Assembly (NCBI GenBank): GCA_030710605.1
Contig: CP092879.1
Location: forward strand, 81,208,935-81,272,934
DNA length: 64,000 bases
Direction of reading: 5' to 3'
From: Cordylochernes scorpioides
Taxonomy: Eukaryota > Arthropoda > Arachnida > Pseudoscorpiones > Chernetidae
The notes under the pieces: model-generated
What the model was told of the DNA's origin: nothing
Seen by the model: only the letters and a program-made list of their open reading frames with translations
The model's database searches: none
Part shown: one piece after another, positions 244-47,527 of the stretch
How the letters are laid out: the number at the start of each line of letters is the position of its first letter
Position numbering within the stretch: position 1 is the first letter of the stretch
Translations under genes and position numbers: made by a program

Positions 244-934
244 CTAGCGGACGTACCCGGCTTCGCCCGGGTTTTACCCGAGTAAAGGTTTGTCTAACGA
301 ATCTCTCGATAAAGTGAACATTTTTTCCCGGTCCCTTGAAAAATACTCGATAAGTTGAATAAAATCGATATTAATTGGTTCCCTCGGTAATTGGAAGTTA
401 AAGGAATAGTATCTTGCCTTGGAATTGTATCATTATTCTTGTATGGACGTACCCGGCTTCGCCCGGGTTTTACCCGAGTAAAGGTTTGTCTAACGAATCT
501 CTCAATAAAGTGAACATTTTTTCCCGGTCCCTTGAAAAATACTCGATAAGTTGAATAAAATCAATATTAATTGGTTCCCTCGGTAATTGGAAGTTAAAGG
601 AATAGTATCTTGCCTTGGAATTGTATCATTATTCTTGTCTCAAATAAATTGCCCTGTCATCCTGAATTTTGTCTTTCCAAATTTTCTACATTACAAAATC
701 ATCGTATCATCATGATAATATTTAGAGCAGATTGTTGAATTATAACAGATAAATTAGAATATTTATCTTGATTATTTTAAAGCGAAAAGTTATTTCAAAA
801 ATTTTATTTGCTAGAAACCTTCCCAGTACTATACTAAATAACTTCCCAAAGTTTCATGGCGTTCCAATGAGTGGTTTGGTCAGGCATAAAGGACAAACAC
901 ACCACACACATACATTCATTTTTATATATATAGA
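244..934 (-). mobile_element. Non-autonomous Helitron (minus strand)
   Basis: On the minus strand the element starts with TCTATATATATAAAAATG and ends with a GC hairpin around CCCGGGCGAAGCCGGG followed by CTAG. It is flanked by A on the 5' side and T on the 3' side, as expected for Helitron insertion between A and T. The 3'-terminal unit is present twice, at about 248-445 and 446-635. No Rep/helicase coding is present. The uninterrupted site is visible in the duplicate at about 20,216-20,230. Confidence 0.85.
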
Positions 935-29551: not shown

Positions 29552-30446
29552 CTAGCGGACGTACCCGGCTTCGCCCGGGTTTTACCCGAGTAAAAGTTTG
29601 TCTAACGAATCTCTCGATAAAGTGAACATTTTTTTCCCGGTCCCTTGAAAAATACTCGATAAGTTGAATAAAATCAATATTAATTGGTTCCCTCGGTAAT
29701 TGGAAGTTAAAGGAATAGTATCTTGCCTTGGAATTGTATCATTATTCTTGTATGGATGTACCCGGCTTCGCCCGGGTTATACCCGAGTAAAGGTTTGTTT
29801 AACGAATCTCTCGATAAAGTGAACATTTTTTCCCGGTCCCTTGAAAAATACTCGATAAGTTGAATAAAATCAATATTAATTGGTTCCCTCGGTAATTGGA
29901 AGTTAAAGGAATAGTATCTTGCCTTGGAATTGTATCATTATTCTTGTATGGATGTACCCGGCTTCGCCCGGGTTTTACCCCCAGGTAAAGGTTTGTTTAA
30001 CAAATCTCTCGATAAAGTGAACATTTTTTCCCGGTCCCTTGAAAAATACTCGATAAGTTGAATAAAATCAATATTAATTGGTTCCCTCGGTAATTGGAAG
30101 TTAAAGGAATAGTATCTTGCCTTTGAATTGTATCATTATTCTTGTCTCAAATAAATTGCCGTGTCATCCTGAATTTTGTCTTTCCTAATTTTCTACATTA
30201 CAAAATCATCGTATCATCATGATAATATTTAGAGCAGATTGTTGAATTATAACAGATAAATTAGAATATTTATTTTGATTATTTCTAGGCAAAAAGTTAT
30301 TTCAAAAATTTTATTTGCTAGAAACCTTCCCAGTACTATACTAAATAACTTCCCAAAGTTTCATGGCGATCCAATGAGTGGTTTGGTCAGGCATAAAGGA
30401 CAAACAAACAAACAGACACACATACATTCATTTTTATATATATAGA
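29552..30446 (-). mobile_element. Helitron with three 3'-end units
   Basis: Same family as 244-934: minus-strand start TCTATATATATAAAAATG and end CTAG, between A and T. The 3' unit with CCCGGGCGAAGCCGGG is present three times (about 29,556, 29,757 and 29,950). Copy 1 at about 13,911-13,917 reads AATAAATTACAATATC without it. Confidence 0.85.
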
Positions 30447-35624: not shown

Positions 35625-35915
35625 TCAGAGCAGACGACACCTGGATGTCTTCTGCAACTTAGGTTGGGGACAGAGCGTGGCACGGATGGCCTCGTCGAAG
35701 ACATTCTTCAGTCCTTTCTGTGTGAGGGCCGAGCATTCGAGGTACTTGATAGCTTTTATTTCTTTGGCCATGGCAAGGCCTTGCGGGTAGGAGATGGGGC
35801 TGAGCTTGCGCTCCTGCAGACGATCCACTGTGGCGCGGTCCTCGCGTAGGTCCAGCTTGGTGCCCACCAGGATGACAGGCACGTGAGGACAGTGGTGGGA
35901 CACCTCAGGGTACCA
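35625..35915 (-). CDS. Rac exon 5 (C-terminal, 96 codons plus stop)
   Basis: It begins after acceptor CCTGTGCAG with TGGTACCCTGAGGTG (WYPEV) and ends with the CRLL prenylation box and TGA at 35,625-35,627. The 96 codons equal Rac1 residues 97-192 with no indel. Branch-point candidates CTGAC and TACTGAA lie within 25 bases upstream. Codons are GC-rich, unlike the surrounding repeats. Confidence 0.93.
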
Positions 35916-38900
35916 CTGCACAGGCGTCAGTTGTTCAGGCTTCAGTAAACTTAACCCACTCATGGAGACAAAACTTGAGGAAGTTGTACTTTTTAGCATG
36001 TATATCGGAATTCAGACAATAACTCTGAAATATATTACAGTGATCTTTATCGAAGAAATACGAGATAACCAAGTGAAAACAGCCTTTGTCTCCTTAAAAA
36101 AAAAAAAAGAAGATAACCAACAATCTAAAAATAGGAAACTTCCTTAAGTTTTGTCCATGAGTGTAACACACTACTTTAGTAAATTCGGGGGATCGGTGGA
36201 GGATGGTCTAAACCGTTGTGTTTTCAACCGCTACGACCCGGGTTCGATTCCCGCATTGGGCACTTTTTTCTGATTTAAAAAAATGCTCCAATGGGCCCCG
36301 ATTCTTGCAAAAAAAGTCCAACCCCACCAGCGAGTGCAAGTAACCAAACGGGGCTCTGGTACATTTGTAAGTGCAAAGTCGAATTGCTTTTCACATGCGA
36401 AGACATGTGGTGCACTTACAGTAAAAGCAGTCGCCAACTTCTACCCACCATGATTATCATGGCCTGTACCACGTGAACTAGGGATAAGCAAAAAAAAAAA
36501 AAACCTTAGTAAATCCACCTTTGCCTGTCCTAAGCCCAGATAAAAAGAAAGAGGAGAACAAGCTTGCACAGCTGGCCTGGCTGAATGCCCCCTGTAAGAG
36601 CCCCAGGATGAGTCTGTACTCAGAGATAGGAGCAGCTTCACATGACATCAGTCCCTCATGTCAAAGATGACCTTGCTCCCAAAGGCCTTGTAAACATTAA
36701 GGTGAAAACATCAGTCTTCCAGTGATAAGTTTATTTTTTAAACATTTTACTTCCAATTTCTAGGTTTCAGGTAGAAAATCCCTTCTCCGCCTTTGCCGGT
36801 CCCAAGCCCGGATGAAAAAGGAGGAGGGGGAGCAGTAACAAGCTCACTAAAAAACCTGGGCTCAGCTGGCCTGGCTGATAGTACCCTGTAAGGACTCCTA
36901 ATACAAGAATACAGGATGAGCAGCGTTTGTACTCCCATGTTAGGAGCGGCTGCACATGGCGTCTGTTCCTCATGTCAGAGGCAGCCATTTATTTTAGAGC
37001 TAAGTCGGCCTGCCACTGAGTAGTACTCCCAGTCTTAATGTTAAAGGCAGATGCATTCTACTTCACCCAGTCATGATGGTTGTCAAGCTTTACAAGCTTG
37101 ATACCTTAATATGATTAAGTGGAGATAAGAAAGAAGAAATACCTTCTACATGTTTCTTCTGTAGGTCTTCCATGCCTGTGAAAGCTCTAGAGATTTGAAG
37201 TCAAATGTTAAGAATGAAACTTGTAATTGAAAGCTTTATGTTTTCACTTTAATGTTTACCAAGTCTTGGAGAGCCTACAGCCAATAAACAGTCTCCCTTC
37301 CAAAAGTTTTGCTCTATTTCACCTTAATGTTTACCAAGTCTTGGAGAGCCTACAGCCAATAAACAGGCTCCCTCCCAAAAGTTTTGCTCTATTTCACCTT
37401 AATGTTTACCAAGTCTTGGAGAGCCTACAGCCAATGAACAGGCTCCCTCCCAAGTCTTGGAGAGCCTACAGCCAATGAACAGGCTCCCTCCCAAGTCTTG
37501 GAGAGCCTACAGCCAATGAACAGGCTCCCTCCCAAGTCTTGGAGAGCCTACAGCCAATGAACAGGCTCCCTCCCAAGTCTTGGAGAGCCTACAGCCAATG
37601 AACAGGCTCCCTCCCAAGTCTTGGAGAGCCTACAGCCAATGAACAGGCTCCCTCCCAAGTCTTGGAGAGCCTACAGCCAATGAACAGTCTCCCTCCCAAA
37701 AGTTTTGCTCTATTTCACCTTAATGTTTACCAAGTCTTGGAGAGCCTACAGCCAATGAACAGGCTCCCTCCCAAGTCTTGGAGAGCCTACAGCCAATGAA
37801 CAGTCTCCCTCCCAAGTCTTGGAGAGCCTACAGCCAATAAACAGGCTCCCTCCCAAGTCTTGGAGAGCCTACAGCCAATGAACAGGCTCCCCCCCAAGTC
37901 TTGGAGAGCCTACAGCCAATAAACAGGCTCCCTCCCAAGTCTTGGAGAGCCTACAGCCAATGAACAGGCTCCCTCCCAAGTCTAGGAGAGCCTACAGCCA
38001 ATCAACAGTCTCCCTCCCAAGTCTTAGAGAGCCTACAGCCAATGAACAGTCTCCCTCCCAAGTCTTGGAGAGCCTACAGCCAATAAACAGGCTCCCTCCC
38101 AAGTCTTGGAGAGCCTACAGCCAATGAACAGGCTCCCTCCCAAGTCTTGGAGGGCCTACAGCCAATGAACAGTCTCCCTCCCAAGTCTTGGAGAGCCTAC
38201 AGCCAATGAACAGCTCCCTCCCAAGTCTTGGAGAGCCTGCAGCCAATGAACAGGCTCCCTCCCAAAAGTTTTGCTCTATTTCACCTTAATGTTTACTAAG
38301 TCTTGGAGAGCCTACAGCCAATGAACAGTCTCCCTCCCAAGTCTTGGAGAGCCTACAGCCAATGATCAGTCTCCCTCCTAAGTCTTGGAGAGCCTACAGC
38401 CAATCAACAGTCTCCCTCCCAAGTCTTGGAGAGCCTACAGCCAATGAACAGGCTCCCTCCCAAGTCTTGGAGAGCCTACAGCCAATCAACAGGCTCCCTC
38501 CCAAGTCTTGGAGAGCCTACAGCCAATCAACAGACTCCCTCCCAAGTCTTGGAGAGCCTACAGCCAATCAACAGACTCCCTCCCAAGTCTTGGAGAGCCT
38601 ACAGCCAATCAACAGACTCCCTCCCAAGTCTTGGAGAGCCTACAGCCAATGAACAGTCTCCCTCCCAAGTCTTGGAGAGCCTACAGCCAATGAACAGGCT
38701 CCCTCCCAAGTCTTGGAGAGCCTACAGCCAATCAACAGTCTCCCTCCCAAGTCTTGGAGAGCCTACAGCCAATCAACAGCCTCCCTCCCAAGTCTTGGAG
38801 AGCCTACAGCCAATGAACAGGCTCCCTCCCAAGTCTTGGAGAGCCTACAGCCAATCAACAGTCTCCCTCCCAAGTCTTGGAGAGCCTACAGCCAATCAAC

Positions 38901-41900
38901 AGTCTCCCTCCCAAGTCTTGGAGAGCCTACAGCCAATCAACAGTCTCCCTCCCAAGTCTTGGAGAGCCTGCAGCCAATCAACAGGCTCCCTCCCAAGTCT
39001 TGGAGAGCCTGCAGCCAATCAACAGTCTCCCTCCCAAGTCTTGGAGAGCCTGCAGCCAATCAACAGGCTCCCTCCCAAAAGTTTTGCTCTATTTCACCTT
39101 AATATTGATACAGAGAATTATTTTACTGAACTCAAATATTTCACCAGAGCTACAATAACTACTTTTTCACTAATTTTCAAAATTTTGTTTTACAAACAGA
39201 AATAATGTAGATGAGGCACAAATTGGATTATAGATTATAAACACAAGGTAATAAGACCAAATCCAAATAAATAGTGTGTGACGTTTCGGTAACAGCGTTG
39301 TTACCATCTTCAGACAAAAGTACTGAATGGTAAACATTAAAGTGAAAACATAAAGCTTTCAATGATAAGTTTCATTCTTAACATTTGACTTCAAATCTCT
39401 AGAGCAGTGATTCTCAACCTTTTTTTTGTTGCGGCATTATTTTAAAGATTTGAAAATTTGGCGGCACAATTTTAGAATTTCGCAGCACACTTTTGCTAAC
39501 TTGAATGCAAGAAAATTCAAATTATGTATCAATATTTCTATGCAAAATATAAGTAATATACATCTCTAACATTCAATTTGCTAATTTCGTTATTTTAAAA
39601 AGTAAAAAAATGAAAAAGAAAAAAAAAAAACCAATACAAACGTGAACATAATCATATGACTAAAATTCGGCGGCACATTTTTAGAATTTCGCGGCACACA
39701 AAATTACCGCGGCACATTGGTTGAGAATCACTGCTCTAGAGCTTTCACAGGCATGGAAGACCTACAGAAGAAACATGTAGAAGGTATTTCTTCTTCTTCT
39801 TTCTTATCTCCATTCAGTACTTTTGTCTGAAGATGGTAACAACGCTGTTACCGAAACGTCACACACTATTTATTTATTTGGATTTGGTCTTATTACCTTG
39901 TGTTTAGAAATAATGTAATATATTTTTCTCTCAATATATAATAAACTAGACGTGTGACCCGGGCTTCGCCCCGGGATTGACCCGTGTGCATATCTACCCG
40001 AGTGATATATATTTAGATAAGATTTTTTTTTATAATTGTTTGTTATTAGCATTATCTATTTGTTTGCATCAGCATAATTTATTCTAATCTTTGATAGAGG
40101 GCGCTGTTCGTGAGCTAAGTAGAATAATTTGAATATATAGTTTTAATAATTGATTTATATATTTTTTAAAATAGCCTATTGTCTTCCCCGTATTTTTTTT
40201 ACCTATGTATGGAAATTTTGGTTTGAATTATTGAACTACTGCGAATTTGTATACCGGACATACAAACAAACATACAAACATTGATTTTTATATATATAGA
40301 TATTTAAAATATGTATATAATAATATGTATATAAAAAATAGTATTTATTATTAAGTTGTTAACGTGATAATCCTGTTGAAGGACTGACAAATCCGAAAGC
40401 TTGAAAATAAAAGGTTTGCACAAGAAACTTAACCCTGGAAGCTAAATTTATTTTAAAATAACTACTGTACACACGAGGCTTCCACAGAAGACAGCCTACC
40501 TTGGCACGGACGTTCTCGAAGGACGCCGGGTTGACCAGGGAGTAACAGATGAGGAAGACATGCTGTGACAGACATGGAGTGAAACCATGGTAGCTACGGT
40601 AGAGTTAGAGGACCTACAGTCTCTGGGTAGGACAGAGGCCGTAGTCTGTCATAGTCCTCCTGTCCCGAAGTGTCCCATAGGTGTAGATTGACTGGCTTGC
40701 CGTCCACCATGACATGGGCCATGTAGTTGTCGCACCTGGCGATTGCACACGTCAGAGCCACATGTTCCTCTTAGATTACAGCCAAACTTTTACAGCAGCA
40801 ACAAGAAGACCTAATCCAAATAAATTAATAGTATGTGATGTTTCGGTAACAGAGTTCTCACACTATTGATTTATTTAGATTAGGTCTTATTTTCTTGCAG
40901 CTACAATCTATAATCCAAATTGTGCTTTATCATTTTACAGCAGAAACTTGGCTATAGCACCATAAGTTCCCTATTGTATTAACCGTGGTTGTATCAGAAA
41001 CATGGCTACACAAGGTAATAATACCAACTCCAAATAAATAAATAGCGTGTGACGTTTTGGTAGAAGTATTGTTACTATCAGCATACAAAAGTACTGAATC
41101 TATTCATATTCTCCATTCAGTACTTTTGTTCTGATGAACGCTATATGTTTCTTTTCAATAACATCATCAAATATTACCTCTACAGACCTTACTGCAATGA
41201 TATAAGTTATTGAATGAGATGGTTTGACTCATTCAATAACTTATATCATTACAGTAAGGTCTGTAGAGGTAATATTTGATGATGTTATTGAAAAGAAACA
41301 TATTGCCAGTAAATTAATTTGTTACAAATATAAGTGTAAAATGTACTCACACAGTAGGGATATAAGTGTAGAAAGTACTCATACAGTAGGGATATAAGTG
41401 TAGAATATACTCACACAGTAGGGATATAAGTGTAGAAAGTACTCACACAGTAGGGATATAAGTGTAGAAAGTACTCACACAGTAGGGATATAAGTGTAGA
41501 AAGTACTCACACAGTAGGGATATAAGTGTAGAAAGTACTCACACAGTAGGGATATAAGTGTAGAAAGTACTCACACAGTAGGGATATAAGTGTAGAAGTA
41601 CTCACACAGTAGGGATATAAGTGTAGAATGTACTCACACAGTAGGGATATAAGTGTAGAAAGTACTCACACAGTAGGGATATAAGTGTAGAAAGTACTCA
41701 CACAGTAGGGATATAAGTGTAGAAAGTACTCACACAGTAGGGATATAAGTGTAGAAAGTACTCACACAGTAGGGATATAAGTGTAGAATGTACTCACACA
41801 GTAGGGATATAAGTGTAGAAAGTACTCACACAGTAGGGATATAAGTGTAGAAAGTACTCACACAGTAGGGATATAAGTGTAGAAAGTACTCACACAGTAG

Positions 41901-42801
41901 AGGGATATAAGTGTAGAAAGTACTCGCACAGTAGAGGGATATAAGTGTAGAAAGTACTCACACAGTAGGGATATAAGTGTAGAAAGTACTCACACAGTAG
42001 GGATATAAGTGTAGAAAGTACTCACACAGTAGGGATATAAGTGTAGAAAGTACTCACACAGTAGGGATATAAGTGTAGAAGTACTCACACAGTAGGGATA
42101 TAAGTGTAGAAGTACTCACACAGTAGGGATATAAGTGTAGAAAGTACTCACACAGTAGGGATATAAGTGTAGAATGTACTCATACAGTAGGGATATAAGT
42201 GTAGAATGTACTCACACAGTAGGGATATAAGTGTAGAATGTACTCACACAGTAGGGATATAAGTGTAGAATGTACTCACACAGTAGGGATATAAGTGTAG
42301 AAAGTACTCACACAGTAGGGATATAAGTGTAGAATGTACTCACACAGTAGGGATATAAGTGTAGAATGTACTCACACAGTAGGGATATAAGTGTAGAAAG
42401 TACTCACACAGTAGGGATATAAGTGTAGAAAGTACTCACACAGTAGGGATATAAGTGTAGAATGTACTCACACAGTAGGGATATAAGTGTAGAAAGTACT
42501 CACACAGTAGGGATATAAGTGTAGAAAGTACTCACACAGTAGAGGGATATAAGTGTAGAAAGTACTCACACAGTAGGGATATAAGTGTAGAATGTACTCA
42601 CACAGTAGGGATATAAGTGTAGAAAGTACTCACACAGTAGGGATATAAGTGTAGAAAGTACTCACACAGTAGGGATATAAGTGTAGAAAGTACTCACACA
42701 GTAGGGATATAAGTGTAGAAAGTACTCACACAGTAGTAAGGTATTCTTCAGGGAAGGCTTTGTTGGTGTAACTGATGAGGAGACATGTCTTTCCCACGGC
42801 T
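35625..42801 (-). CDS. Rac-family Rho GTPase (exons 2-5)
   Basis: Spliced from 42730-42801, 40618-40735, 40500-40562 and 35625-35915, the exons encode residues equivalent to Rac1 13-192. Exon lengths are 72, 118, 63 and 291 bp; every junction has GT/AG and phases match. Visible elements: AVGKTCLL of the P-loop, switch I ending [19 protein letters not shown] of switch [16 protein letters not shown] (guanine specificity), ECSAL, and a C-terminal CRLL prenylation box. Rac proteins cycle between GTP and GDP at membranes and drive actin remodelling through PAK and WAVE. Oddities: switch I has T for P34 and C for F37, switch II has S for A59, and the tail is less basic than usual. Exon 1 (about 12 codons ending in the glycine completed by the first base of 42,801) was not found and probably lies upstream. 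It could be a functional divergent paralogue; reading frame conservation argues against a dead copy. Confidence 0.9.
35957..36164. mobile_element. mariner-like MITE family D in the last Rac intron
   Basis: Ends CACTCATGGAGACAAAAC and TTTTGTCCATGAGTG. It lies only about 41 bp upstream, in gene orientation, of the exon 5 acceptor, so it adjoins the branch-point region. Confidence 0.85.
36187..36503 (+). mobile_element. tRNA-derived SINE, copy d
   Basis: Starts GGGGGATCGGTGGAGG, B box GGTTCGATTCC, ends ACTAGGGATAAGC plus A13. It is antisense to the Rac intron. Confidence 0.85.
37263..39082 (+). repeat. 41-bp minisatellite, about 40 copies
   Basis: The unit runs from CTTGGAGAGCCTACAGCC through AACAGGCTCCCTCCCAAGT, with AATGAAC, AATAAAC and AATCAAC variants. 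Five or six positions carry a longer insert with AAAAGTTTTGCTCTATTTC and ACCTTAATG. Since 41 is not a multiple of 3, translation cycles through all frames, producing spurious ORFs up to 259 codons. It lies in the intron between Rac exons 4 and 5. Confidence 0.92.
39405..39733. mobile_element. hAT-type MITE with 8-bp target duplication
   Basis: Terminal repeats CAGTGATTCTCAACC and GGTTGAGAATCACTG are typical of hAT elements. The 8-bp CTCTAGAG is at 39,397-39,404 and 39,734-39,741. The inverted arm at about 37,180-37,200 retains a single CTCTAGAG, so it is the empty site. The 329-bp interior has repeated GCGGCAC motifs and no transposase. Confidence 0.92.
39946..40300 (-). mobile_element. Short Helitron in Rac intron
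   Basis: Minus strand: starts TCTATATATATAAAAATC after A, ends with hairpin CCCGGGGCGAAGCCCGGG and CACACGTCTAG before T. The length is 355 bp. Its body (AGCGCCCTCTATCAA on minus or plus) is shared with 25,930-25,965. Confidence 0.85.
40373..40402 (+). ncRNA. Penelope-type hammerhead-like box
   Basis: CTGTTGA, GGACTGACAAATCC, GAAAGC. Same sequence as 957-986 with one stem mismatch. A remnant only. Confidence 0.4.
40500..40562 (-). CDS. Rac exon 4 (21 codons)
   Basis: Acceptor CTGTCACAG, then CATGTCTTCCTCATC (HVFLI); it ends at GCCAAG before donor GTAGGC. It encodes [21 protein letters not shown] minus nothing; the first residue replaces the usual aspartate. The intron to exon 3 is only 55 bp. 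Confidence 0.92.
40618..40735 (-). CDS. Rac exon 3 (switch I/II region)
   Basis: Acceptor ATCGCCAG; the first G completes the V36 codon (GT from exon 2 plus G). It continues with [34 protein letters not shown], then donor GTAGGT. Gly60 and Gln61 equivalents are intact; residue 37 is Cys instead of Phe and residue 59 Ser instead of Ala. Confidence 0.92.
41144..41302. repeat. 75-bp near-perfect inverted repeat
   Basis: Arms 41,144-41,218 and 41,228-41,302 are complementary apart from about one position (TTACTGCAATG against CATTACAGTAA), with a 9-bp loop. The left arm starts TATGTTTCTTTTCAATAAC. It lies in the intron between Rac exons 2 and 3. Confidence 0.88.
41327..42735. repeat. 32-bp minisatellite built from a splice donor, about 44 copies
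   Basis: The plus-strand unit starts GATATAAGTGTAGAAAG and continues TACTCACACAGTAGG. On the gene (minus) strand each unit contains CTACTGTGTGAGTAC, the same 15 bases that span the exon 2 donor (CTACTGT/GTGAGTAC at 42,722-42,736). Variants are AATGTACTC for AAAGTACTC, and CAGTAGAGGG with two extra bases. The array abuts the exon directly. Confidence 0.93.
42730..42801 (-). CDS. Rac exon 2 (P-loop to switch I, 72 bp)
   Basis: Acceptor CTGTAACAG at 42,802-42,810; the first A completes Gly12, then [20 protein letters not shown] and LTTV. Donor GTGAGT is at 42,724-42,729. Lys16 and Thr17 equivalents that bind phosphate and magnesium are present. Confidence 0.92.
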
Positions 42802-43767: not shown

Positions 43768-44956
43768 CATTAGTGTGACGTTTCGGTAACAATATTGTTA
43801 CCAGACAAAAGAATAAATGAGAAATAGTATTACAGCATGTTCTTAAATAGCACTGTTATCAAGTGTTTAAACACTATTTAAAAACTTGCTGTGATATTTT
43901 TTCTCATTTATTTTTTGGTCTGATGATGGTGACAATGTTGTTGCCAAAACGTCACACACTAATAAATTATTTGGATTAGGTCTTATTTTCTTGTATTATA
44001 ATCTATAATCCAAATTGTGCTTTATCATATTCTTGTGAAAAAATAGCCCAAATGTGATATTGTACTTTTTTAGAAAAATAATTCTAAATAGTAAGTATAT
44101 ATATATATTAATATAAAAGATCGAAATGTAAAAATCACTACGTCCAAAATCTTCGCTTTAACTCGTGTAAAACGGCTCGAAGGTACGGCGGTGTCAACGT
44201 ACAGCGCCGTCTACCAAAGTTAACCTTTTCTGGGAACTCACCAAAATAGGTATACACCCTTTTACACCCAAAACATAATAAGTGTTAGATATGTTTTAAT
44301 TAAAATTCTAATATACACTTTTATATATTTATTATATATGAATAAAAATAAACATTATTTATATAAAATTCTTATTTTGAGTTTTCAATATTACATTTTT
44401 ATCATAACATATGCTTTTGAAACTTACCCATCGCCCACTGCTACACATTTTACTGTTTGCATTTCGTTTTATGTTGGTAAAGTTAATAAAACAATATTTC
44501 AAAAAATAAATGACAATCGCATATTAAAAAATCCAATTGAATTTCAATTTCGTTTCATCACAAATCAATTTCAATTGAAAGATCAAATATTAAATAATAA
44601 AAATAATAAAGAAATGTTGTCAGATTATTAAATACACTTTTAGGTTTTTGTTTTTGTTTATGACGCTAGCATTTAATTTTAAATCTAGTTAAGTACAAAA
44701 GACCCCTAGAGGAACTTCTAATATAATAACGAATAGATTCAAAAAGGATAAGTTTCTTTATTTGAAAAATCAATTCGAGCTTTCGGGCGCAAGCTGCCCT
44801 TCTACAGGAATAATAGATACAATTTTAAGTAGATACTTATAATAAGTAATAAGAACTTCTAATATGTATATATGTTATACATATGTTGGGACACCTCGTG
44901 ACCATAATATGCCAAAGTAACCCAGAACCCCACCTAACCTAACCATATCCCACCTA
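43768..44956. other. AT-rich DNA, hairpin fragments and a Penelope-type box
   Basis: A hammerhead-like hairpin module spans about 43,768-44,030. On the minus strand 44,807-44,779 reads CTGTAGA, GGGCAGCTTGCGCCC, GAAAGC, a well-paired Penelope-type box. The 97-codon ORF at 44,338-44,631 is AT-driven, and I do not support it as a gene. Confidence 0.5.
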
Positions 44957-47527
44957 CAGTGGACCCTCGGTTTACGAGCACCTTGGAGTACGAGCTTTTC
45001 GCAGTACGAGCAAAATTTTTGAAAAATTTTACCTCGGATTACGAGTGAAATTTCGCATTACGAGCAACTCGTGATGGTTGCCCCTCTTCTCCATTTCCAC
45101 CTTTAGCGGCGGGATGAGGGCATATTTTTATATTAAATATTATTTTATTTATGGATTGTTATTAATCATTATAATATAAGTACAGTATATATATTTAATA
45201 CATACTATAATGTATATATTCAAATCGATACATATATATATATATATATATACATGTATATAGTATTTTAAAATTAAAGAAAACTTTTTTAATTTTTAAG
45301 ATAACTTTTTCCATTTGTAAACAAAGGCTCGAAGGTGTTATTAAAATTTAAAAAGTTGCTATTAAAATTTAAAAAGTTGCTATTAAAATTTAAAAATTTG
45401 CTATTAAAGTTAAAAAGTTTTCTTTAATCTTAAAATACTCTGTATATCATTTTGACTAATTTTAATTCAACGATAAAATTAACTCTCAATGATAAAGGAA
45501 TAGCTTTTTTTAATTTCTTATTTATTTTTTAGATTATATATGTATTTTCAAAAATTGGTGACAATTTCTACCTCTCTTGCTATAAAAATCCTATAAACAC
45601 TGCAAAATGGGCCCCGTGAAGAAATATGTTGAAAGAGAATTGGGTAAGAAGAAGGATATTATCACAATGGAGGCAAAGAGGGAAATGATTGAAAAGCACG
45701 AACGTGGCATGTGGGTGACAGAAATAGCGAGATTTTATAAGAAGTCGACATCAACGATTTGCACAATATTGAAGAAGAAAAAGGAATTAAGGGAGTTAGA
45801 TGTAGCAAAAGGAGTCACAAGACTATCAAAACAGCGTCCACGTCTTCTAGAAGAAGTTGAAAAATTGATTCTTGTATGGATAAACGAGAAGCAATTAGCA
45901 GGTAATACCATAACCCAGAATTTAATATGTGAAAAGGCAAAGGCCTTGTACGCCGAACTCAGGAGTAAAATACCATGTACATCAATCAATAGAGAACGAA
46001 GTACATGCAGACTTCAAAGCCAGCAAGGGGTGGTTCGAAAACTTTAAGAGGAGAAGTGGCATCCATAGTGTCACGAGGCATGGAGAGGGTGCAAGTTCGG
46101 ATGCTAAAGCAGCTGAGACATTCACTGCCGAGTTCGAGAAGCTCGCTGTTACCGAGTGTTACCACCCACAGCAAGTTTTTAATTGTGATGAAACAGGACT
46201 TTTCTGGAAAAAGATGCCGAAGAGAACCTACATTACAGCCGAAGCGAATACAATGCCCGGTCACAAGCCCATGAAAGACCGTCTCACCCTCTTGCTGTGT
46301 GCTAATGCAAGTGGAGATTTGAAAGTAAAGCCACTGCTCGTGTATCATTCTGAGAATGATCACTTACTGGATGAATTCAAGTTTATTGAGGTCAGGTTCC
46401 TCCCTCCTAACACCACCCCACTACTGCAGCCTATGGATCAGCAGGTCATTTCCAACTTTAAGAAAATATATATCAAAGAACTTTTTCAGAGATGCTTCGA
46501 ATTAACTGAAGAAACAAACCTTACTCTCCGAGAGTTTTGGCAGAATCATTTCAACATTGTCCACTGCCTTAAGATCATTGATAAAGCATGGAATGGAGTC
46601 TCCCAGAGAACTCTCGTTTCTGCTTGGACAAAATTGTGGCCTCACATCGTCCATGCATATGATTTTAAGGGGTTGTCTGGTGAACAGGAGCCACCAATTA
46701 TCGATGTTATTGTGTCTCTGGGGAAAACTTTAGGACTGGAGGTGAATGAGCCAATCATTCAAGAGCTTGTGGAGGAAGAAGATCAGGAGCTTACCACAAA
46801 TGAACTGATCGATCTTCATCGCGAGCAACACCAAGAGGCTAAGGAGGTGATCTCGTCTGGGGAAGAGGAGGATGAAAATTCACTGGGATCCCTCCCTTCA
46901 GATCAGATTCGGGAAATATGTGAATGTGGGAAACTGTGCAATTGTTCGTAGCAAAGCACCACCCGAATAAGCCGGCTGCTTTGCGAGCGACGGATCAGTT
47001 CAACGATAATGCGATGTCGCATTTCCGTGAAATTCTCAAAAAGAGGCAGAAGCAACAGTCATTGGACCAGTTCTTCGATAAAATTGAAAGAAAAAAATAA
47101 AATGTTATAAAATAACCCTTTTATGCCATTTTTCCCTCAAATAGTGGTTTTTTAACGCAATTGCATCAGCCATCCCAACATTATCTTTTATTATTATTTT
47201 TTTAAAATCTTTTTTATACATTTATTTATGCATTATCTTTTTATTTACTTATCACTAGGTTTGAAATTCAGTAACTATCACGTGTAAAATTTTTCTTTCG
47301 AATCTTTCATTAAAAATATGATAGCTATGATTTCAAATATTGAATGGAGTACAAGCTTCTCTTATACTTATCACGAAGTGTTTACCGACTCTAATTAAAC
47401 TAAAATTCATGGAAGAATTGCCCGAGTTTCAATTATTAAAAATAAGAAATTAGTTTCGCACTACGAGCGTTTTGGAGTACGAGCATGGCACTGGAACGGA
47501 TTATGCTCGCAAACCGAGGGTCCACTG
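44957..47527 (+). mobile_element. Tigger/pogo DNA transposon, TA-flanked
   Basis: Terminal repeats CAGTGGACCCTCGGTTTACG and the inverse TTTGCGAGCATA... side ending CGAGGGTCCACTG bound a 2571-bp element with TA on both sides (44,955-44,956 and 47,528-47,529). Subterminal GTACGAGC repeats occur at both ends. It contains one decayed transposase gene on the plus strand. Confidence 0.92.
45607..47100 (+). pseudogene. Tigger/pogo transposase, frameshifted and deleted
   Basis: ATG at 45,607 opens a CENP-B-like N-terminus with helix-turn-helix (VTEIARFYKKSTSTICTIL) and a second DNA-binding domain finishing KASKGWFENFKRRSGIHS. A frameshift lies at about 45,970-45,995. The DDE domain keeps the first aspartate (FNCDETGLFWKKMP) and the last (LPPNTTPLLQPMDQ). 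The stretch that should hold the second catalytic aspartate, between YHSEN and the FLPPNTT motif, is missing at about 46,348-46,375. A stop at 46,949-46,951 precedes a tail in another frame with FNDNAMSHFREILKKRQKQ, ending at TAA 47,098-47,100. It cannot transpose itself, but its ends are intact. Confidence 0.9.

Follow-up and report, generated by a model that had tools for sequence, protein, structure and literature searches.

A splice-donor minisatellite overlapping the exon 2 border of Rac-like paralogs in a pseudoscorpion

The stretch of DNA analysed here (the window, 64,000 nucleotides) comes from the pseudoscorpion Cordylochernes scorpioides. In a tblastn search, the human RAC1 sequence matched the exons of a single Rac-like gene in the window. 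The gene lies on the minus strand, and its five-exon model has GT-AG introns, a coding sequence of 579 nt, and a product of 192 aa with the C-terminus CRLL (Table 1). The product belongs to the Ras family in Pfam (PF00071, E = 6.9e-51). Its exons align to human RAC1 and its database matches are named Rac, placing it in the Rac subfamily by both domain and sequence. On the gene strand, a tandem array begins at the exon 2 donor, ACTGT/GTGAGT (the slash marks the exon-intron boundary). The window gene is copy B of four Rac-like genes (A, B, C, and X) located in the last 280 kb of contig C17. No further Rac-like gene was found by tblastn (E up to 0.01) in the 316,808 bases at the end of C17.

Table 1. 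Features of the Rac-like gene and its array in the window
Feature	Position	Strand	Basis
Alternative first exon from P0014 (MEKRGNHHELLVMRNFTRNP + AG/gtaaaa)	45033..45094	-	matches at A, B only
Exon 1, codons 1-12, phase 2 donor GG/gtaagt	44428..44462	-	tblastn, gene model
Exon 2, 72 nt, ends in Val36 GT/	42730..42801	-	tblastn, gene model
Exon 2 last 9 nt, homologous to the unit's exonic bases	42730..42738	-	paralog comparison, gene model
Authentic exon 2 donor GT (TGT/GTGAGT)	42728..42729	-	gene model
Minisatellite of ~32-bp units, 44 donor junctions (first authentic, 43 decoys)	41328..42736	-	TRF, pattern match, unit tables
43 decoy donors, first to last; GTGAGT kept in 40/43	41350..42697	-	unit tables
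Exon 3, 118 nt	40618..40735	-	tblastn, gene model
Exon 4, 63 nt, after 55-nt intron 3	40500..40562	-	tblastn, gene model
Exon 5, 291 nt including stop; CRLL, CAAX-like end	35625..35915	-	tblastn, gene model

TRF resolved the array as a head-to-tail minisatellite with a period of 32, 43.9 copies, and 97% match, in agreement with the roughly 44 units of 32 bp reported by an earlier sequence-only reading of this DNA. With up to two mismatches, CTACTGTGTGAGTAC had 44 matches in the window, all on the minus strand and within the array (shuffle control: mean 0.03, largest 1). The match at the highest coordinates, 42722-42736, is the exon 2/intron 2 junction itself (ACTGT/gtgagt), so the earlier statement that the units share these 15 bases with the donor junction was borne out. 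The claim that every 32-bp unit carries them holds only in part, because 38 of the 44 units are 32 bp long, three are 34 bp, and three are 31 bp, and the 15-mer is exact in only 40 of 44. GTGAGT is intact at 41 of the 44 window junctions, and dozens of decoy donors are indeed offered at the level of sequence. The array was also said to start at the exon-intron junction. It does include that junction, but by comparison with the array-less paralog X the repeat begins 9 nt inside exon 2, and 7 of these 9 nt still match in the window copy. The minisatellite therefore overlaps both the 3' end of the exon and the next donor. The idea that the unit keeps the canonical exon 2 codons Y-I-P-T-V was rejected, since X shows that only CCCTACTGT is exonic; the TATAT in the unit is intronic, and its Y-I reading arises by chance. 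A scan of viral contigs for the unit gave 0 matches. A title search of open-licence literature with limited terms found no earlier description of the array.

The number of donor junctions differs among the paralogs (X 1, C 9, B 44, A 47), and intron 2 measures 615 nt in X, 682 in C, 2090 in A, and 1994 in B. Copy number thus varies among recent paralogs lying in duplicated blocks on C17. GTGAGT is intact in most units of each array-bearing gene (A 46/47 and C 8/9, besides B) and at the single junction of X. Reading frames and GT-AG introns are intact over five exons in A, B, and C, and over exons 2-5 in X; no exon 1 was found for X, which has a run of 100 N upstream of exon 2. Across the whole genome there are 98 exact 15-mers (A 45, B 40, C 8, X 1, and 4 on contigs C5 and C10). 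The reversed control pattern has 7 matches in the genome, so a few chance matches of the 15-mer are expected. The four matches on C5 and C10 were rejected as relatives of the array, their surroundings looking unrelated. A 'telomeric' description of the locus was likewise dropped; the last 8,608 bases of the contig lack TTAGGTTAGG, and only 'near contig end' stands. The unit order of A and B is common at both ends ('fbbgbbg' near the start and 'jk' at the end) and different inside. The array of the A/B ancestor was therefore probably already long. The array of C either never grew or shrank.

The switch I residues Pro34 and Phe37 are both retained in X, while A and B have Thr34 and Cys37 and C has Thr34 and Phe37. 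Since these residues are not all kept, the genes are, as judged from their predicted products, Rac-like paralogs and not typical Rac proteins. More canonical Rac1 exons were found on contig C2, where the reading covered exons 2, 3, and 5. Compared with human RAC1, 2 of 63 residues (13-75) and 17 of 96 (97-192) are different in this Rac1. Because of these exons, the window gene is probably not the main Rac of the animal. Exon 2 of the C2 gene ends in GAATACATTCCAACAGT/GTAAG, and no array was found there. Intron 2 of the Rac-like genes occupies the same position as in the C2 gene.

The origin of the array can be read from X, which has the flank GAATACCT, the 32-bp segment CCCTACTGT/GTGAGTACATTCTACACTTATAT, and the flank TTGTAACAAATTAA. 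The unit corresponds to the last 9 exon bases and the first 23 intron bases of X, where it is present in one copy. In A, B, and C the segment is repeated with small changes between the same flanks. Exon 2 ends in TACTACTGT in these three genes (Pro34 to Thr), whereas their units and X have CCCTACTGT; the unit therefore predates the exon change. When exon sites were rooted with the C2 Rac1, five derived states were shared by A, B, and C and three by A and B, giving X,(C,(A,B)). One rooted site, in exon 5, conflicts with this order, and eight more sites, at which all four paralogs are unlike the C2 Rac1, are uninformative for rooted patterns. In the unrooted DNA following the array, 9 and 8 sites support the same splits and 0 support the alternatives. 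These comparisons support descent of the array from the exon 2 donor region, with X as the carrier of the unexpanded state, and from within one genome this origin appears well supported. The earlier proposal of slippage from the exon-intron border thus keeps the border as the source, through the single copy in X, the same flanks, and the rooted sites. Slippage as the founding mechanism fared less well, as by reading only 1 bp (T) is common, and hence ambiguous, at the founding junction. The founding event may thus have been a duplication made during break repair, with slippage or unequal exchange expanding it afterwards.

We considered what donor choice would do to the transcript of the window copy. 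In the spliced model, only the authentic donor gives the 192-aa product. Skipping it yields GTG TGA, and all 43 decoys stop after codon 36. Use of a decoy could therefore only lower the amount of full-length product. The sequence-only reading had expected a downstream donor usually to shift the frame; this is superseded, as all 43 decoys end at codon 36 regardless of unit length. Donors were scored, as that reading had proposed, with a human donor matrix. The authentic junction scored 1.03 against a maximum of 8.63, and the donors of exons 1, 4, and 3 scored 4.68, 4.62, and 0.16, respectively. With the same matrix, GT sites scoring at least 1.03 in exon 2 and intron 2 numbered 41 inside the array (the authentic one included) and 2 outside. 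Because most competitors equal the authentic donor, position would have to separate them. Among identical donors, downstream ones may be preferred, according to older work on two-donor splicing.

Exon 2 might also be unused altogether, since the model of a database protein, P0014, lacks exons 1 and 2. Among the best 120 of 7988 matches, this C. scorpioides protein was the nearest by identity (154 of 156 aligned residues), and no other protein exceeded 81% identity; hence there is no full-length model of A, B, C, or X among those best 120. P0014 represents three member sequences, one of which was examined, and its residues are those of copy A and not of the window copy B. In its model, an alternative first exon is joined to exon 3. 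The N-terminal stretch of P0014 has no counterpart in the Rac model; window positions 45094-45032 encode it exactly. The alternative first exon had no match at C or X in the 316,808 bases searched.

Two kinds of comparison bear on selection. For the donors, 97 decoy units of A, B, and C showed substitutions in 2 of 6 donor columns versus 5 of 24 other columns (p = 0.60), in a test that left out the last two columns of the unit (including the flank-bound ends) and length changes. For the genes, B and X differ by 1 nonsynonymous and 7 synonymous changes in exon 5 versus 11 and 4 in exons 2-4 (Fisher p = 0.0094), exon 1 of X being missing. Exon 5 has the same sequence in A and C, and conversion may therefore have acted on it. 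With C2 as the outgroup, the changes in exons 2-3 unique to A, B, and C numbered 9, 9, and 11 (8 nonsynonymous each) against 1 in X. The binomial p values are 0.02, 0.02, and 0.006, in tests that share history and set aside 5, 5, and 3 sites (A, B, C) where both differ. Each of A, B, and C differs from X at 15 of 190 sites in exons 2-3, while in the post-array part of intron 2 plus intron 3 the differences are 11/645 for A, 17/645 for B, and 8/456 for C (p = 1e-4, 0.002, and 3e-4). Intron 4 of C, with a difference of ~0.34 over the first 400 nt, looks non-homologous and was unused in this comparison. The faster divergence of exons 2-3 than of introns hints at selection on these genes. Synonymous divergence of exons 2-4 from X is also high (dS 0.07-0.10), and for this reason adaptive change, relaxed constraint, and gene conversion in the introns cannot be told apart here.

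We favour a reading in which a 32-bp segment (9 nt from exon 2 and 23 nt from intron 2) underwent a single tandem duplication after X had branched off from the lineage leading to A, B, and C, as the comparison within one genome shows. The duplicate would then have expanded, likely through slippage or unequal exchange, to give the minisatellites of three paralogs, with 9, 44, and 47 donor junctions, nearly every unit adding a donor identical to the authentic one. Splicing of exon 2 would mostly use the exon's own donor and would leak to some extent to the first few donors downstream. The leaked mRNA would carry TGA directly after codon 36 and would probably be removed by nonsense-mediated decay. 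With a canonical Rac1 on another contig, the array would be tolerated and not selected. To the duplicated-donor history and the tolerated, leaky minisatellite taken jointly, we assign a probability of roughly 0.68.

The array might do more than persist. Its length could act as a splicing rheostat that sets the share of exon 2 transcripts lost to decoys, the output of a paralog falling with copy number. Several observations would fit: the authentic GTGAGT is kept in 40 of 43 window decoys, the early stop is the same for every one of them, the array sites reaching the authentic score far outnumber those outside it (41 versus 2, by human donor frequencies), and junction number varies from 1 to 9, 44, and 47 among the paralogs. 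However, the donor bases bear no sign of being kept, and a loss of output may be harmless with the canonical Rac1 elsewhere, making such a rheostat unlikely in our view. The tuning of Rac output suggested earlier is likewise unsupported, the donor columns showing no depletion of variants. A more speculative extension, which we would regard as a long shot, takes the genes as a natural dose series of 1, 9, 44, and 47 competing donors, almost all of them identical. Array length would set the fraction of productive Rac-like mRNA, as a length-tunable poison element that mutates by whole units and has permitted rapid change around switch I in the copies bearing an array. The further suggestion that the array soaks up U1 was rejected as implausible; U1 snRNP is abundant, and one locus could hardly titrate it. 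The array would be irrelevant to splicing if transcripts of A and B started at the other first exon and joined it to exon 3, bypassing exon 2. P0014 has this structure, and its first exon is intact in the window with a donor. Yet the P0014 model may be an automatic prediction, perhaps made after repeat masking, and its product would have neither P-loop nor switch I. No match to the alternative exon was found at C or X in the bases searched, and the frame and both splice sites of exon 2 are kept in all four copies. We judge the bypass improbable because all copies keep exon 2 intact and the model could result from repeat masking.

The duplicated-donor history itself could be reversed, X having formerly carried an array that was removed by a deletion between the first unit and the last. 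Such a deletion is mechanically easy, and the single unit of X resembles the last unit of A and B. X nevertheless keeps the canonical Rac1 states at protein positions 26, 34, and 43, and the canonical Rac1 has no array, which leaves this order of events very improbable. An artefact of assembly, or a tandem placement of haplotypes from a single locus, appears least credible of all. The 100-N runs beside X and between X and A, the 74-N run between A and B, and a difference between A and B at 11 of 826 sites that could be allelic would be consistent with it. The arrays differ, however, in unit order and private variants, and C and X show 2-4% difference from the other copies and from one another, in a nested series. 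Were A and B alleles, this would mean no more than length polymorphism of the array. The tolerated minisatellite with leaky decoy splicing is the most likely reading.

Minisatellites at exon-intron borders are already known, in human IFI6 and in human segmental-duplication paralogs, and the pseudoscorpion array belongs to that kind. In IFI6 (6-16, G1P3) the minisatellite is located where exon 2 ends. With a unit of 12 bp, use of a downstream donor there keeps the frame and adds residues. Both arrays cover the 3' end of an exon and its donor, and in the pseudoscorpion array most units carry an intact donor. The unit of the window copy does not keep the frame, and every downstream donor truncates the product; the outcome differs and not the architecture. 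The IFI6 minisatellite is credited to Turri, Cuin and Porter (1995), and two of its downstream repeat units are used as donors, giving three mRNAs (PMC4526556), so donor use is reported there in RNA, whereas the pseudoscorpion array is described from DNA. Unlike IFI6, the pseudoscorpion array has an unexpanded paralog within one genome. De Grassi and Ciccarelli (2009) described variable internal tandem repeats in paralogs from human segmental duplications and counted 27 intron modifications after manual inspection (PMC2812944). Those cases share with our array a minisatellite at an exon-intron border whose copy number varies among recent paralogs. The human repeats were found from transcripts and can form new introns, while the pseudoscorpion intron sits at the old Rac position and was seen in genomic DNA. 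Intron gain of the Rogers type also involves a tandem duplication carrying splice signals, but it needs an AGGT segment and creates a new intron. The pseudoscorpion unit carries a donor and forms no new intron, and no AGGT was found in its 14 unit types, read by eye. What is special here is the truncating outcome, together with a preserved single-copy state and a copy-number series in one genome.

To our knowledge, choice among identical donors has mostly been studied with a few engineered sites. In this genome the same exon stands before 1, 9, 44, or 47 near-identical donors, and the founding duplication is readable to the base. In the window copy, every wrong donor leads to the same stop after codon 36, so that the choice would be easily countable in long-read cDNA. 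The array offers a clear example, outside mammals, of a minisatellite born from a splice junction.

Exons 2 and 3 of three Rac-like paralogs (A, C and the window copy B) differ at 15 of 190 sites from those of X, the paralog lacking the donor array, and this divergence rate is about 3 to 5 times higher than that of the neighbouring intron. The differences are mostly amino-acid changes, among them Pro34Thr, common to all three copies, as well as Phe37Cys and Ala59Ser, which occur in A and B. The alternative first exon in the model of P0014, the database protein of copy A, showed no match at C or X within the region searched; its sequences in A and B are identical.

Directly past the donor array, intron 2 contains an inverted repeat, which is also present in A and X and has a truncated form in C. 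Judged by eye, this element looks like a small DNA transposon. The Rac-like introns hold seven of the nine arrays found in the 317 kb covered (at least 8 copies, period 10 or more). In intron 4, the minisatellite period is 41 bp in B and 75 bp in A and X, and X has a second minisatellite, also of 32 bp, whose sequence is unlike the exon 2 donor array. An 86-bp form similar to the GTACCCGGCTTCGCCCGGGTTTTACCCGAGTAAAGG repeats of the window is carried by L013, a further stretch of this genome. The two Rac-like matches on another contig, C7, are each in a single frame with no stops and 64% identical to the query over codons 1-191, and they are perhaps retrocopies.

Coordinates of the features (L009, another stretch of the genome)
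Feature	Location	Remark
Exons 2-3, B	window 40618-42801	
Alternative first exon, P0014 model	window 45094-45033	sequence match
Intron 2 inverted repeat	window, about 41080-41320	
Intron 4 minisatellite(s), B	window 37409-39078	
Rac-like intron 4 minisatellite(s)	L009 4471-5463	
Rac-like intron 4 minisatellites	L013 3046-3702 and 4616-6107	
Two related tandem repeats	window 249-638 and 29557-30145	196-198-bp unit with GTACCCGGCTTCGCCCGGGTTTTACCCGAGTAAAGG
Two Rac-like matches	G000 (genome) C7:61062486-61063055 and C7:61161952-61162521	equal scores
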